Part shown: one piece after another, positions 3,823-64,000 of the stretch
How the letters are laid out: every line of letters starts with the position of its first letter
Numbering within the stretch: position 1 is the first letter of the stretch
Made by a program: the position numbers and the translations under genes
Virus record (IMG/VR): IMGVR_UViG_3300036771_000052
Coordinates: 1 to 64,000 of that record
Reading direction: 5' to 3' (one strand)
Length of the DNA stretch: 64,000 nt
Origin: a virus
The notes under the pieces: generated by a model
What the model was told of the DNA's origin: nothing
The model's database searches: none
What the model saw: the letters and a program-made list of their open reading frames with translations, nothing else

Positions 3823-4365
3823 CTAAACCTTACCGGCGCATACCGGACCAATACCGGCCGCAACACTATCACCGGCGTCTAAACGGCGACCACAAACCAC
3901 ACAATAACCGTGGACAGTGGACAGTTCTTGCGCACGCTCAGCAGACACCCTGTCCGTAGTGCGAAGGAACGGAACGACACCAAAATACTTGTATTTAGCG
4001 TCAATCACCGTACCCGCTTCAGTCAAACGAGTCGACCCGGTAGGCGTGAGAACCTTCCCGTACAAAAAACCAGACGTCTTAGACCGAACCACCTGATACA
4101 CCGAACCATCCCGTTCGTAGATACCGGGCTCGATAACCTCACTCCCGGGACTGACAGCCACGCTGACAGCCGTATCGGGGGTGGTCGGTACCTCAACCAC
4201 CGGACAGTCCAGCAAGACGCCTATCGCCTTACTGGCGTCCCTAGACGACATGTCCGTGATCCGCTGCTCAATCCACAAACGGACCGCAGGAGAAACCACC
4301 CTGCCATCGAGCAACGAACGAATAAACCGATCCTGCTTGACCGTGATCATCTTCACCGCATACAT
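3823..4365 (-). CDS. DUF6011-like zinc-motif phage protein (180 aa)
   Basis: The C-terminus YCVVCGRRLDAGDSVAAGIG followed by PVC matches the C-x2-C ... GIGP-x-C pattern of the DUF6011 domain, a small zinc-binding module that ends many actinophage early proteins. The N-terminus (MITVKQDRFIRSLLDGR, about residues 6-22) is a charged helix of the kind found before such modules. The middle (residues about 80-130) looks like a small beta domain. AGAAAGG seven bases before the ATG supports the start. Role unknown; nucleic-acid binding is a guess from the zinc module. Confidence 0.8.
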   Translation of the reverse strand: MYAVKMITVKQDRFIRSLLDGRVVSPAVRLWIEQRITDMSSRDASKAIGVLLDCPVVEVPTTPDTAVSVAVSPGSEVIEPGIYERDGSVYQVVRSKTSGFLYGKVLTPTGSTRLTEAGTVIDAKYKYFGVVPFLRTTDRVSAERAQELSTVHGYCVVCGRRLDAGDSVAAGIGPVCAGKV

Positions 4366-4449
4366 CGTATGACCTTTCTCTGACTGCCATCCGGTAAACC
4401 AGTCAACGCGCGCTCAACCAAACGAACGCGCGCTCACCTACCTACCGAA

Positions 4450-60699: not shown

Positions 60700-61188
60700 T
60701 CAGTCGACGCCGTTCACTCGTTTGGGTTGGTCGGGTTCGGTCCGTCGGCGCATGGTAGAGACGATAGGTGTGGCGTCTGAGTCGTGGTGTGTGTGGAGAG
60801 GTTTCTGAGGTTGATTGATCACATTCGGTACACCCTCAACCGTGACTTGAGGGTTGAGGGTTCCGTTGGACCACCGACGAGACACCTCCGCGTTGGCCGC
60901 ACTCGCCTCAGCGAGCGCTCGACTCTGCCGCAGCAGCAACGTCGAAGCCGACATCTCCTCCCACGCCTGATGCTCCTTCACCGGGAGCAGCTGCTCGTCC
61001 AGGTTGAGCCGCTCCCGAATCTCCAGGAACCGGGTCACCGGAATCTTGCCTTGCTCCCACTTAGCCCACGACGTACGGCCGATGCCGAACATCTCACCCA
61101 TGTCGTCCTGATTGAGTCCAAGTCGTAGACGCGCCTCTCGTAGGCGCTGTCCCAGCAGCCGTGCAGGCTGTCCCAGCAGCGAGGTCAT
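60700..61188 (-). CDS. Cro/CI-type repressor, probable immunity repressor
   Basis: MTSLLGQPARLLGQRLREAR then LRLGLNQDDMGEMFGIGRTS is an XRE helix-turn-helix; the C-terminal 90 residues are low in structure with no LexA-like protease, so it should act without cleavage. ATAGGTGG precedes the ATG at 61188 (a start at 61224 is possible). It faces the rightward promoter at 61317 and probably binds the shared 19-bp element there and at 58443. Confidence 0.78.
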   Translation of the reverse strand: MTSLLGQPARLLGQRLREARLRLGLNQDDMGEMFGIGRTSWAKWEQGKIPVTRFLEIRERLNLDEQLLPVKEHQAWEEMSASTLLLRQSRALAEASAANAEVSRRWSNGTLNPQVTVEGVPNVINQPQKPLHTHHDSDATPIVSTMRRRTEPDQPKRVNGVD

Positions 61189-61316
61189 GCCACCTATCAT
61201 CTCTGTAGACCACTGGGAAAGCAAGCATCAACACGACCAAACTGCCACCGTGATCCACTCTTGACCTGCGGTTTTACCGATCATCGGCGTCGCTTGCTAC
61301 CTAGAACGGAAAAATA

Positions 61317-61405: not shown

Positions 61406-61470
61406 AAGACTTGGGAGGCGGAAGTCAAACTCAGGTGGCCACACAGAGGCTGAGGTGTTGCGCCAAGCAA

Positions 61471-61829
61471 AGGCCGACCATGATGCGGAAGTAAGCCTTT
61501 CAGCCGCGAGTCGGACCTGCTTTTGCCTCCTTCATGAGGAGGTGGGACCCGGAGTTGGCGAGGTCCCGGGTCCCACCTCCAACAACTCAATCTCCCCGCC
61601 GACCAACAAAAAAGCGATACCCATCTTGGTACCGTCGGCGGGGTCCTAACCAGCCAGCCGGGACCATGGGAAACACGATAGCCAGACAGTGTTTGTCCTG
61701 GCTGGCTCCTAATCTTCCCCGCCGACCAGGTGTTGCGCGGTAACCACAGAGACTGCGTCGGCGGGGTCTTAAGCAGCGGCAACGACCAGGTCTTCGTCGA
61801 CACCCATATGCCTAACGTCGTTTGTCGCT
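61471..61829 (+). repeat. Hairpin array, block 1 (5 units)
   Basis: Units at 61471-61518, 61594-61643, 61653-61706, 61717-61766 and 61775-61829. The core is GAC-CA-N10-GNNNNCCA-N10-GTC on an 8-13-bp helix whose sequence differs (CCCCGCCGAC/GTCGGCGGGG; GCCAGCCGGGAC/GTCCTGGCTGGC). N10 pairs: ACAAAAAAGC+TCTTGGTACC, TGGGAAACAC+GACAGTGTTT, GGTGTTGCGC+CAGAGACTGC, GGTCTTCGTC+TATGCCTAAC. The first unit has CCT and an 11-base second box. TCCTAA-type linkers separate units. Another plain 15-bp hairpin lies at 61538-61580. The fourth linker leads into the ribosome-binding site of gene 61852. Confidence 0.88.
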
Positions 61830-61851
61830 CCGATCAAAGAGGAGAAACGCA

Positions 61852-62415
61852 ATGCCAGGTTTCGATCTACGCGCTCTCGTCAAAGACATCTGTGACAGCT
61901 CGGCGCTGACCAACGATGATGAGCTGACGAAGGAAGTGTTGTCTCAGATCGCGCCGGCCGACGAGCATGCGGCGTTGGAGCAGTCGTTGCCGGCATTCAT
62001 GCAGCGTTTTCTGTCACGGGACCATCGTCCGCTGGCGGCGCCACAGTCAACCCCCGCCAGCCAAGGTGGTACTGATGACCAACCAGGCTCCGCTGGCGGG
62101 GGTCCTCAGCCATTCCGTTCACCGAAAGTCGAAGGCGTCCGTTCCTGGTATCAGGAGTGGAAGAGCCAGTGTGACGGCGCTCGGGTGAACGTTGGCCGGA
62201 ACGAACGCAAGTTCTTCGGGGATTGTACGTTGGAGGATTTGGCGTATATTTCTCAGCATCGGCGTAAGTTGGCGGCGGCGAATCTTGATGCCGCTGACTA
62301 TGTTGATCGGGTTGCTGAGTTGATGCAGAAGCATGGTGTGAAGCTTGCGCGGCAGTTGCCGGAGGATGCGGTTCGCCAGTTGGCTGGCGGTAAGTTGGCT
62401 GGCGGTGCGCAGTGA
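61852..62415 (+). CDS. Array-associated protein A (187 aa)
   Basis: AGAGGAGAAACGCA sets the start at 61852. MPGFDLRALVKDICDSSALT; residues about 65-85 are translated from a hairpin unit; the C-terminal half is helical (VRSWYQEWKSQCDGARVNVG, then LEDLAYISQHRRKLAAANLD). It carries no enzymatic motif. Overlaps the next gene as GTGA. The protein family is not recognised; co-transcription with the array suggests it binds or processes it. Confidence 0.75.
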   Translation: MPGFDLRALVKDICDSSALTNDDELTKEVLSQIAPADEHAALEQSLPAFMQRFLSRDHRPLAAPQSTPASQGGTDDQPGSAGGGPQPFRSPKVEGVRSWYQEWKSQCDGARVNVGRNERKFFGDCTLEDLAYISQHRRKLAAANLDAADYVDRVAELMQKHGVKLARQLPEDAVRQLAGGKLAGGAQ

Positions 62416-62979
62416 CTTCGACGCTCCCAAGGCAGGTCCATCATGACCATGATCTTGCCGGCACCCATAAAGGCGGCGTCGTGGTGGACCCCCAAACAGC
62501 CAGCCAGGACCAAACACCCGGCGATTCCCATACGCGTGGCGTCTTGGCTGGCACTGAGCTCCCCGTCGACCATGGCAAGGTCGACACCCATAACGCGCAT
62601 GTCGGCGGGGTCCTAGACAGTGGCAACGATCAAACTAGATGCGACGACTACGACGGTCCCGTCGTTGCTGCTTCAGATTCCCCGACGACCATCCCGATCC
62701 CGTCCTCCATAGATGGCACGTCGCCGGGGTCTCAATCTACCGTCGACCATACTGAGTGTGATTCCCACCTCGGAACTGTCGACGGTGTGAACGGAACACC
62801 AGGCCAGGCCACGAGAGGAATGAGGTCCAACGATGCCTCGTTTGGTTTGGTGTTCCGTGAATCAGACTCCCCGGCGACCAGCCAGCAGGCGTCATCCATG
62901 GTGAATCCGTCGCCGGGGTCCCAAAACAGCGCCACCGACCATGCCACAACCGAGAACCACGGCCGCCATGTCGGTGGCG
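62051..62979 (+). repeat. Hairpin array, block 2 (10 units inside two genes)
   Basis: Units at 62051-62102, 62435-62490, 62499-62552, 62561-62610, 62619-62672, 62680-62729, 62739-62786, 62791-62858, 62869-62918 and 62930-62979. All ten keep the 10/8/10 spacing of the core. Some stems need G-U pairs, as in GGTCCATCATGAC/GTCGTGGTGGACC, which suggests selection on RNA pairing. The first unit lies in gene 61852, the others in gene 62412. Here the linkers avoid in-frame stops (TCCTCAG, TCTCAAT) where intergenic units have TAA. Confidence 0.88.
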
Positions 62980-63788
62980 TGTTAGACGATCAGTCAGATT
63001 CAGTTACGTCGAAGCGGTCGCTGAATCTGACTGATCCCCTCCTCAGCCTCGCTGCGGACATTGTTGACGACTTGGAAAAGGTTCGCGTAGCTAACGAGAA
63101 CCGACTACGGCAACTCACCCGCAGCGAAGGAGACAAGGACGGTCAGAACCGCGGTTGGGGGTTGGACCTCGACCATCCGGATGTGGCGAGACTCGCCGGA
63201 CTCGTCGACCTGTTGATCGCGGCGGAGAAACAGGCGATTAAGAACCTCGAAATCCACATGAAGCAACACCCGCTGGGTCCGTGGGTGAAGCTAGCGAAGG
63301 GAGTCGGGGAGAAACAAGCGGCTCGACTGCTGGCGGCGATCGGTGACCCGTATTGGAATGAGCTGAAGAATCGGCCGCGGCGAGTAGCGGAGCTCCGATC
63401 GTACTGTGGGTATGGGGATGCGGAGAAGCAGGTGCGCCGTAAGGGTGTGAAGGCGAATTGGTCGGCGGATGCGAAGAAACGCGCATATCTGGTGGCTACG
63501 TCGATCATCAAAGCGGGTGGTCCGTATCGTGAGGTGTATGACCAGGCTCGCGCGAAATATGACGGCGCGGTCCATACGTCGGAGTGTCGGCGGTGTGGTC
63601 CGGCGGGGAAGCCTGCTCTTCCGGGGTCTCCGTTGTCTGCTGGTCATCAGCATGCTCGTGGTTTGCGAGCTATTTGTAAGGCTGTGTTGAAGGATTTGTG
63701 GTTTGAGGCTCGTAGCCTTCATGGTGTCCCCGACGATCAACGGTATCACGATAACCATCAAGCGATCGTCGTCGGGGACTCTAGTTAA
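62412..63788 (+). CDS. Array-associated protein B with IS110-type C-terminal domain
   Basis: 458 residues. GTG start overlapping the stop of protein A; internal starts such as 62899 are possible. Residues about 1-200 are encoded by hairpin units and are low-complexity with repeats (DHGKVDTHNAHVGGVLD). Residues about 210-290 are helical (DIVDDLEKVRVANENRLRQL), then GVGEKQAARLLAAIGDPYWN and VAELRSYCGYGDAEKQVRRK resemble the HhH-containing Transposase_20 domain of IS110-family recombinases; ARGLRAICKAVLKDLWFEAR closes it. The DEDD/RuvC-like catalytic half is absent. It probably binds nucleic acid, perhaps the hairpins. Confidence 0.75.
   Translation: MTSTLPRQVHHDHDLAGTHKGGVVVDPQTASQDQTPGDSHTRGVLAGTELPVDHGKVDTHNAHVGGVLDSGNDQTRCDDYDGPVVAASDSPTTIPIPSSIDGTSPGSQSTVDHTECDSHLGTVDGVNGTPGQATRGMRSNDASFGLVFRESDSPATSQQASSMVNPSPGSQNSATDHATTENHGRHVGGVLDDQSDSVTSKRSLNLTDPLLSLAADIVDDLEKVRVANENRLRQLTRSEGDKDGQNRGWGLDLDHPDVARLAGLVDLLIAAEKQAIKNLEIHMKQHPLGPWVKLAKGVGEKQAARLLAAIGDPYWNELKNRPRRVAELRSYCGYGDAEKQVRRKGVKANWSADAKKRAYLVATSIIKAGGPYREVYDQARAKYDGAVHTSECRRCGPAGKPALPGSPLSAGHQHARGLRAICKAVLKDLWFEARSLHGVPDDQRYHDNHQAIVVGDSS
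62988..63036 (+). repeat. 16-bp perfect inverted repeat inside protein B gene
   Basis: GATCAGTCAGATTCAG pairs with CTGAATCTGACTGATC over a 17-base loop. It directly follows the last unit of block 2, lacks the core motifs, and marks the junction between the hairpin-encoded N-terminus and the conserved C-terminal domain. Confidence 0.7.
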
Positions 63789-64000
63789 TTGACATCCCCG
63801 GCGACCAGAGTATGCGCGATAACCAATTCGTTTTCGTCGCCGGGGTCCTAATCTCCTCCACCGGTTATGCCGAATCCGGTCTCCAATAGATCCAGCGCCG
63901 GTGGAGACCTAAGCAGTTCCGGAAGTCAGGATATCTGCGTTACCCATGTGGCATCCGCTTCCGGGACCTCTAACTTCAAGGATGCTGACTTGACCAGCGA
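63726..64000 (+). repeat. Hairpin array, block 3, continues beyond window
   Basis: Units at 63726-63779 (over the end of gene B), 63796-63845, 63856-63906 and 63916-63967, and the start of another from about 63974 to the window end. Box pairs: ACGGTATCAC+TCAAGCGATC, GAGTATGCGC+ATTCGTTTTC, GGATATCTGC+TGTGGCATCC; one unit has a longer second box. Linkers again hold TAA (TCCTAATCT, ACCTAAGCA, TCTAACTTC). No gene is seen here. Confidence 0.85.

Follow-up and report, generated by a model that had tools for sequence, protein, structure and literature searches.

The window analyzed here is a stretch of 64,000 nucleotides from a virus (IMG/VR record IMGVR_UViG_3300036771_000052, positions 1 to 64,000 of 97,861 bp); its right-hand end contains an array of hairpins with paired variable inserts that we identify as a stem-loop TIGR array with its protein, TasA. 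The hairpins lie before, within, and after two genes on the + strand, a partner gene at 61852..62415 (187 amino acids from the ATG at 61852; phrog_4604, function unknown in PHROGs) and tasA at 62412..63788 (458 amino acids). Near the array, on the − strand, are genes for a tyrosine integrase of the ordinary phage type (58841-60025) and an XRE-type regulator (60700-61224); given these neighbors, the phage is probably temperate. The phage is actinobacterial-type; a DNA search found no relatives of its structural region among public phages.

The motif GACCA-N10-GNNNNCCA-N10-GTC occurs exactly 12 times in the whole record, always on the + strand and between 61601 and 63838; the other strand has no copy, and the reversed motif was not found. 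One further unit in the window carries GATCA, so that a near-strict count gives 13 copies, fewer than the 17 exact units reported in a preliminary description made from the sequence alone. When the boxes are relaxed, 18-19 hairpins are found from about 61465 to 63965, of which the first (at about 61465) is poor; the additional unit that the description saw cut by the window end could not be confirmed. Most stems in the window have 8-14 bp with at most one mismatch, and their sequences vary between units; the exception is the unit at 61784, in which only 5 bp are paired without a bulge. The inserts are shorter than the 10 nucleotides originally assigned to them: a position table of 103 distinct units shows a pyrimidine as base 10 of both N10 boxes in ~90% of units, with a G after it (as box D, CG and TG are about equally common). 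Base 10 is therefore not free, and the true unit is GA-CCA-N9-YG-N4-CCA-N9-YG-TC, that is, CCA-N9-YG twice, with 9-nucleotide spacers that we designate A and B. The occurrence of this unit in a compensated stem is far beyond chance; the array is real.

The preliminary description knew no named family with this layout; however, the main text of Faure et al. (2025, Science; PMC12045711) describes stem-loop TIGR arrays with two 8-12-nucleotide spacers, box C (CCA), box D (UG), variable palindromes, and a nuclease-less TasA. The core of the window protein (63003-63785, 261 amino acids) is conserved and has a Nop fold (predicted structure with pLDDT 88.8 and pTM 0.83). In a comparison of this model with the PDB, the best match is TIGR-TasR (9mty; E 5e-9), followed by TasH and then by the IS110 recombinases ISCro4 and IS621; Nop5 structures are only weak matches. 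A Pfam search of the open reading frame (ORF) found no nuclease family (HNH, RuvC); a Nop fold without a nuclease domain identifies the protein as TasA. Thus, the window array is a stem-loop TIGR array with TasA, and every TIGR-Tas feature testable in sequence was found: a Nop-domain Tas protein with the array, two boxed spacers, palindromic variable flanks, no HNH or RuvC domain, and, from the spacer coupling and exact host sites described below, spacers A and B that are directed against opposite strands of one target, with a 1-nucleotide overlap unlike TasR.

Relatives of TasA in public phage records are labeled transposase, helix-turn-helix (HTH) protein, or hypothetical, and in PHROGs they are phrog_4285, "transposase"; seven of 21 family members match Pfam Transposase_20, weakly. 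The GenBank entries for Euphoria gp70, Pinto, Barriga, and Rufus, like phrog_4285, carry the transposase label, and their fold and context are those of TasA. These labels should be corrected. The phrog_4604 partner is conserved and helical, and in Euphoria it (gp71) likewise immediately precedes the array; in the second TasA clade, the upstream ORF has a similar C-terminal motif. The AlphaFold model of the partner (pLDDT 83, pTM only 0.43) gave no structural match.

Two pattern scans of IMG/VR showed that many other contigs share this architecture and that some of them have 6-12 units; 26 of 65 hairpin-pattern loci encode a relative of the window TasA at the array and on the same strand. The association also holds when loci are selected by TasA similarity alone: 68 of 73 distinct loci have at least one unit and 62 have at least two, with 357 units on the tasA strand and a single unit on the opposite strand. 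Among matches to the loop motif only in these protein-picked loci, eight of eight flanking positions are paired in 323/448 on the tasA strand vs 1/62 on the opposite strand; all of the fetched loci together have 606 units, whereas their reversed sequence has one. The preliminary description had noted compensating changes in the helices and proposed a covariation test and a search for homologues. In 418 units (partly selected), stem positions 1-8 are paired in 97-99% vs 41-74% after shuffling and show all six standard pair types, that is, the stems covary, and homologous units are found in IMG/VR contigs and in public phages. The latter include Mycobacterium cluster-A1 phages, e.g., Euphoria (gp71-array-gp70) and ConceptII, and the Gordonia phage BENtherdunthat (gp58, gp59, and at least 11 units); the system also occurs in an M. 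abscessus prophage and probably in the Rhodococcus phage Peregrin. When 13 A1 arrays are aligned, the stems are constant and the spacers are almost wholly different between close relatives; because both spacers change while the stems do not, some mechanism must swap spacers without touching stems. In the A1 phages at loci L088, L089, and L093-L103, a second unit has a 13-nucleotide constant linker and the box D variant CA.

The units are often located inside tasA itself. The tasA reading frame contains 243 of the 349 units near the gene. An N-terminal extension accounts for 189 of these, and another 49 are in an insertion that separates conserved blocks of the Nop domain; the remaining five are in a C-terminal tail. 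In 237 of the 243, GAC begins in codon phase 0 or 2, and in only six does it begin in phase 1; in phase 1, the TG of box D followed by A would be read as a stop. In the window and in five other loci (L025, L038, L052, L055, and L090), the tasA start codon overlaps the stop codon of the upstream gene by 4 nucleotides just 5' of the unit-bearing segment; this overlap supports the view that the segment is translated. The main text of Faure et al. (PMC12045711) places arrays upstream or downstream of tas and makes no mention of in-frame units, although the supplement may draw them. With guides within the effector frame, one RNA would be both the message and the guide precursor, that is, a built-in feedback.

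The units of the window, all on the + strand, follow this organization. Upstream of the partner gene are units at 61594..61643 (spacers ACAAAAAAG / TCTTGGTAC; exact motif, 9-bp stem), 61652..61707 (TGGGAAACA / GACAGTGTT; exact motif, 12-bp stem), and, from the motif scan, 61717..61766 (GGTGTTGCG / CAGAGACTG) and 61773..61831 (GGTCTTCGT / TATGCCTAA; interrupted stem). A unit with a perfect 12-bp stem lies within the partner gene (62050..62103; AGGTGGTAC / ACCAGGCTC). The tasA ORF contains units at 62435..62490 (TGATCTTGC / TAAAGGCGG), 62499..62552 (AACACCCGG / TACGCGTGG), 62562..62609 (TGGCAAGGT / TAACGCGCA), 62680..62728 (TCCCGATCC / TAGATGGCA), 62738..62787 (TACTGAGTG / CCTCGGAAC), 62791..62858 (CGAGAGGAA / ACGATGCCT; long stem), 62869..62917 (GCCAGCAGG / TGGTGAATC), and 62930..62979 (TGCCACAAC / CGGCCGCCA); the unit at 62619..62672 has degenerate boxes (TCA, CTA; AACTAGATG / CGACGGTCC). 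Another occupies the final tasA codons, in the C-terminal tail (63726..63779; box C TCA; ACGGTATCA / TCAAGCGAT), the next is directly 3' of tasA (63796..63844; GAGTATGCG / ATTCGTTTT), and two degenerate units, read from the sequence, follow at 63857..63907 (box C TTA; TGCCGAATC / ATAGATCCA) and 63915..63966 (box C TCA; GGATATCTG / TGTGGCATC). Strong hairpins that lack boxes C and D (15-20-bp stems, short loops) also occur between guide units, in the window at 61538-61580 and 62988-63036 and in locus L013 at 4334-4374; these are possibly terminators or processing signals.

The two spacers of a unit are coupled. Complementarity between base 9 of spacer A and base 9 of spacer B is seen in 182 (44%) of 418 de-duplicated units, vs 118.9 ± 7.8 (28%) expected from within-locus shuffles (z 8.1); this pair of positions is the sole significant cell among the 81 of the 9 × 9 matrix (p about 1e-16), and the two bases are complementary in 10 of the 15 clearest window units. 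Using a codon-usage model, spacer A and the reverse complement of spacer B read as one coding sequence only when the latter starts 2 mod 3 after A (z 5.9; 5.2 with A9 and B9 masked). Both TasA clades show this link, as do units in which A9 and B9 agree and units in which they do not; with A and B on the same strand, the model gave no codon-phase signal. Both the complementarity and the codon phase are as expected for a single 17-bp coding target whose center base is read by both spacers, so the target rule is A1-9 followed by the reverse complement of B1-8. Adjacency (gap 0) as the fit to coding variation was an early impression from one guide pair and was dropped after the pooled test. The A9-B9 complementarity might instead be a base pair inside the guide RNA and not a common target base; its being the only significant cell of the matrix and the position of both bases next to box D are consistent with such a pair. 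We regard this as unlikely, because the codon-phase link of A1-8 with the reverse complement of B2-9 survives masking and appears only at the 1-nucleotide-overlap offset, and because exact host sites have the 1-nucleotide-overlap spacing, with the A9 base at the center where A9 and B9 disagree.

With the adjacent geometry (gap 0-2), guide matches are at chance level in the phage's own genome, related loci, phages, and Mycobacterium; with the overlap geometry, they are at chance level in its own genome and in 2.3 Mb of related phage loci, so targeting of self or of relatives is unsupported. Seven prophage guides were then compared with the genomes of their own hosts (overlap geometry, at most one mismatch). 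Three have exact sites: GAGAAGAAGGACAGCTG and TCGTTGACCGCACTCTT from locus L189 and AATTACGCCCAACGGCT from locus L182. The probability of a match by chance is 0.7-2.8e-3 per guide, and that of three in seven is, by our own arithmetic, roughly 1e-7 to 1e-6. The L182 site is in dnaA, just past the Walker A motif; the GAGAAGAAGGACAGCTG site spans codons 3-8 of a gene that is flanked by cspA-like and topA-like ORFs, and the orthologous site in a second Mycobacterium matches too; the TCGTTGACCGCACTCTT site is in an ORF for an MFS-type transporter. TCGTTGACCGCACTCTT and AATTACGCCCAACGGCT are each matched in their own host only. In guides with disagreeing A9 and B9, it is the A9 base that stands at the center of exact own-host sites.

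As a second example, the guide AAGGCCATT / GCTTCCCGG, which is shared by Euphoria, ConceptII, and three other A1 phages, predicts the target AAGGCCATTCGGGAAGC. At most one mismatch to this target is found in 57 of 297 Mycobacterium genomes (~61 sites), with seven exact sites (0.2 expected) and ~54 with one mismatch; the reversed pattern gave about 20. Most of the single mismatches are the synonymous change ATT to ATC, and 10 of 12 inspected sites fall in treY (malto-oligosyltrehalose synthase), at the same codons. Both versions of the center are present in treY, T (read by A9) and C (read by B9); a center read by both spacers may thus accept a wobble base. One guide from a Gordonia phage agrees with mycobacterial treS at 17 of 17 positions; this is a single match, near chance. 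Trehalose polyphleates are required by the phages BPs and Muddy (PMC10465359); that trehalose genes are targeted for reasons of surface chemistry is speculative.

Our interpretation is that a phage or prophage here carries a stem-loop TIGR-TasA system that most likely acts as a programmable roadblock and represses host genes, during infection or lysogeny; we assign this interpretation a probability of about 0.8. Each hairpin would be a dual-spacer guide RNA (tigRNA) with a closing stem of free sequence and would be processed from a longer RNA. The nuclease-less TasA, encoded among and around the units, would bind the tigRNAs as a dimer; each spacer would pair with a different strand of a single uninterrupted 17-bp stretch of protein-coding sequence, with the central base pair common to both. 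In relatives, the predicted targets are genes in the bacterial host chromosome, i.e., dnaA, treY, and the gene beside topA, and TasA-tigRNA at these 17-bp sites would block transcription or bend the DNA. The architecture, strand bias, TasA fold, spacer coupling, and exact host matches of relatives are direct observations, and sequence comparisons support the half of the mechanism that concerns the guide and its host site. They likewise favor the proposal in the preliminary description that the hairpins are guide-like elements working as RNA: published box C/D dual-spacer guides, the accompanying Nop-domain TasA, and the host matches of relatives all agree with it.

Several observations weigh against this interpretation. 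A9 and B9 disagree in 56% of units; in the TasR work, as given in the main text (PMC12045711), spacers A and B do not covary and the targets are adjacent (gap 0-2), so either the stem-loop clade differs or the 1-nucleotide-overlap geometry needs experimental proof. The preliminary description proposed comparing the boxes with host and phage DNA, and the comparison gave host sites for some spacer pairs of relatives, but for the 15 guides of the window no target was found, either in the phage's own DNA or in the 1.6 Mb that were searched of one Mycobacterium genome. When all guides were pooled, hits at offset 9 in the same 1.6 Mb were not clearly in excess. The other four of the seven prophage guides have no own-host match with at most one mismatch, one other mycobacteriophage guide has no host match, and the match in the MFS gene may be due to chance.

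A TIGR-TasA system could instead be aimed at competing mobile elements, that is, serve superinfection exclusion or competition between phages. Hypervariable spacers with constant stems in the A1 relatives would be expected in an arms race, and the main text of Faure et al. (PMC12045711) suggests competition between mobile elements. However, for 14 A1-phage guides (exact 18-bp targets, gap 0), a search of 50,697 phage records found nothing except one 17-mer in Microbacterium phages, and for four more guides (overlap geometry) only a 17-mer in Vibrio phages, at a BLAST sensitivity that is borderline for such short queries; host matches, in contrast, exist. Targets in elements yet to be sequenced may exist as well, but we consider this aim improbable.

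Recombination by an IS110-type element with a bridge-RNA-like guide is more doubtful still, and we rejected it: the weak Transposase_20 matches, the place of IS110 recombinases as next-best fold, and the transposase labels would agree with it, but no RuvC/DEDD domain is present in or next to the ORF, TasR and TasH are far better structural matches, and each locus has many different guides whereas IS110 has one bridge RNA with two loops. That the hairpins function as folded DNA (an origin, packaging, or attC-like recombination sites) or as terminators, to which palindromes near an integrase gene in a phage might point, was likewise rejected as hardly credible given the fixed box C/D spacing of the loop, the strict bias for the tasA strand, the conserved association with TasA, the spacer coupling, the host matches, and the lack of an Rfam or attC-type match.

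The stem-loop TIGR-TasA locus can now be compared with known systems. It resembles the Peromyscus leucopus gut contig in the main text of Faure et al. in having CCA/YG-flanked spacer pairs, variable palindromes, tandem units, a nuclease-less Nop protein, and a setting in a phage or mobile element; it differs from the stem-loop TIGR arrays described there in that most units of the family are in the tasA frame, the phrog_4604 partner is upstream, the loop is strictly 9-4-9, A9 and B9 are coupled, and host targets can be named for relatives. With dual-repeat TIGR-TasR and TasH it shares a 36-nucleotide unit, CCA/YG motifs, the Nop fold (9mty and 9w03 are the best matches), and opposite-strand spacers; unlike them, it lacks a nuclease domain, has stems in place of edge repeats, and appears to use a 1-nucleotide overlap vs adjacency. 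In the IS110/IS621 bridge RNA, the two guide segments are directed at opposite strands and have a core in common. The fold of the IS110/IS621 recombinases is homologous; however, the tasA ORF retains only the Nop/Transposase_20-like part and has no DEDD/RuvC domain of an IS110 insertion sequence, that is, no recombinase domain, and the locus has many guides with one loop per guide. Box C/D snoRNAs with Nop5/Nop56 have the same box C/D logic and Nop domain, but here neither a K-turn nor a fibrillarin partner was found, and the targets are probably DNA and not sites of RNA methylation. An exact match to an integron attC family, which the preliminary description had raised, was looked for, and no attC-type match was obtained; the units have CCA/YG boxes in a 32-nucleotide loop, the neighboring integrase is of the ordinary phage type, and the units have no Rfam match.

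The natural targets and purpose of TIGR-Tas were left open in the main text of the founding paper (PMC12045711); our results offer a testable target rule and named host targets, and the in-frame units, the A9/B9 coupling, the host matches of prophage guides, and the treY match of the Euphoria group go beyond that text. The system has been hidden in well-studied phages because public records say "transposase". In Euphoria and ConceptII (3-5 guides) and in BENtherdunthat, ordinary genetics could settle the targets and the purpose. On balance, we favor the generalization that temperate phages of Actinobacteria and other bacteria carry TasA systems without a nuclease whose tandem guides lie partly in the frame of the effector, are aimed at conserved host genes (dnaA, treY, and the topA-linked gene), and would silence host replication or metabolism via a 17-bp bipartite code whose center is read twice. 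This suggests that phages use TIGR-Tas to find, and probably to silence, host genes.

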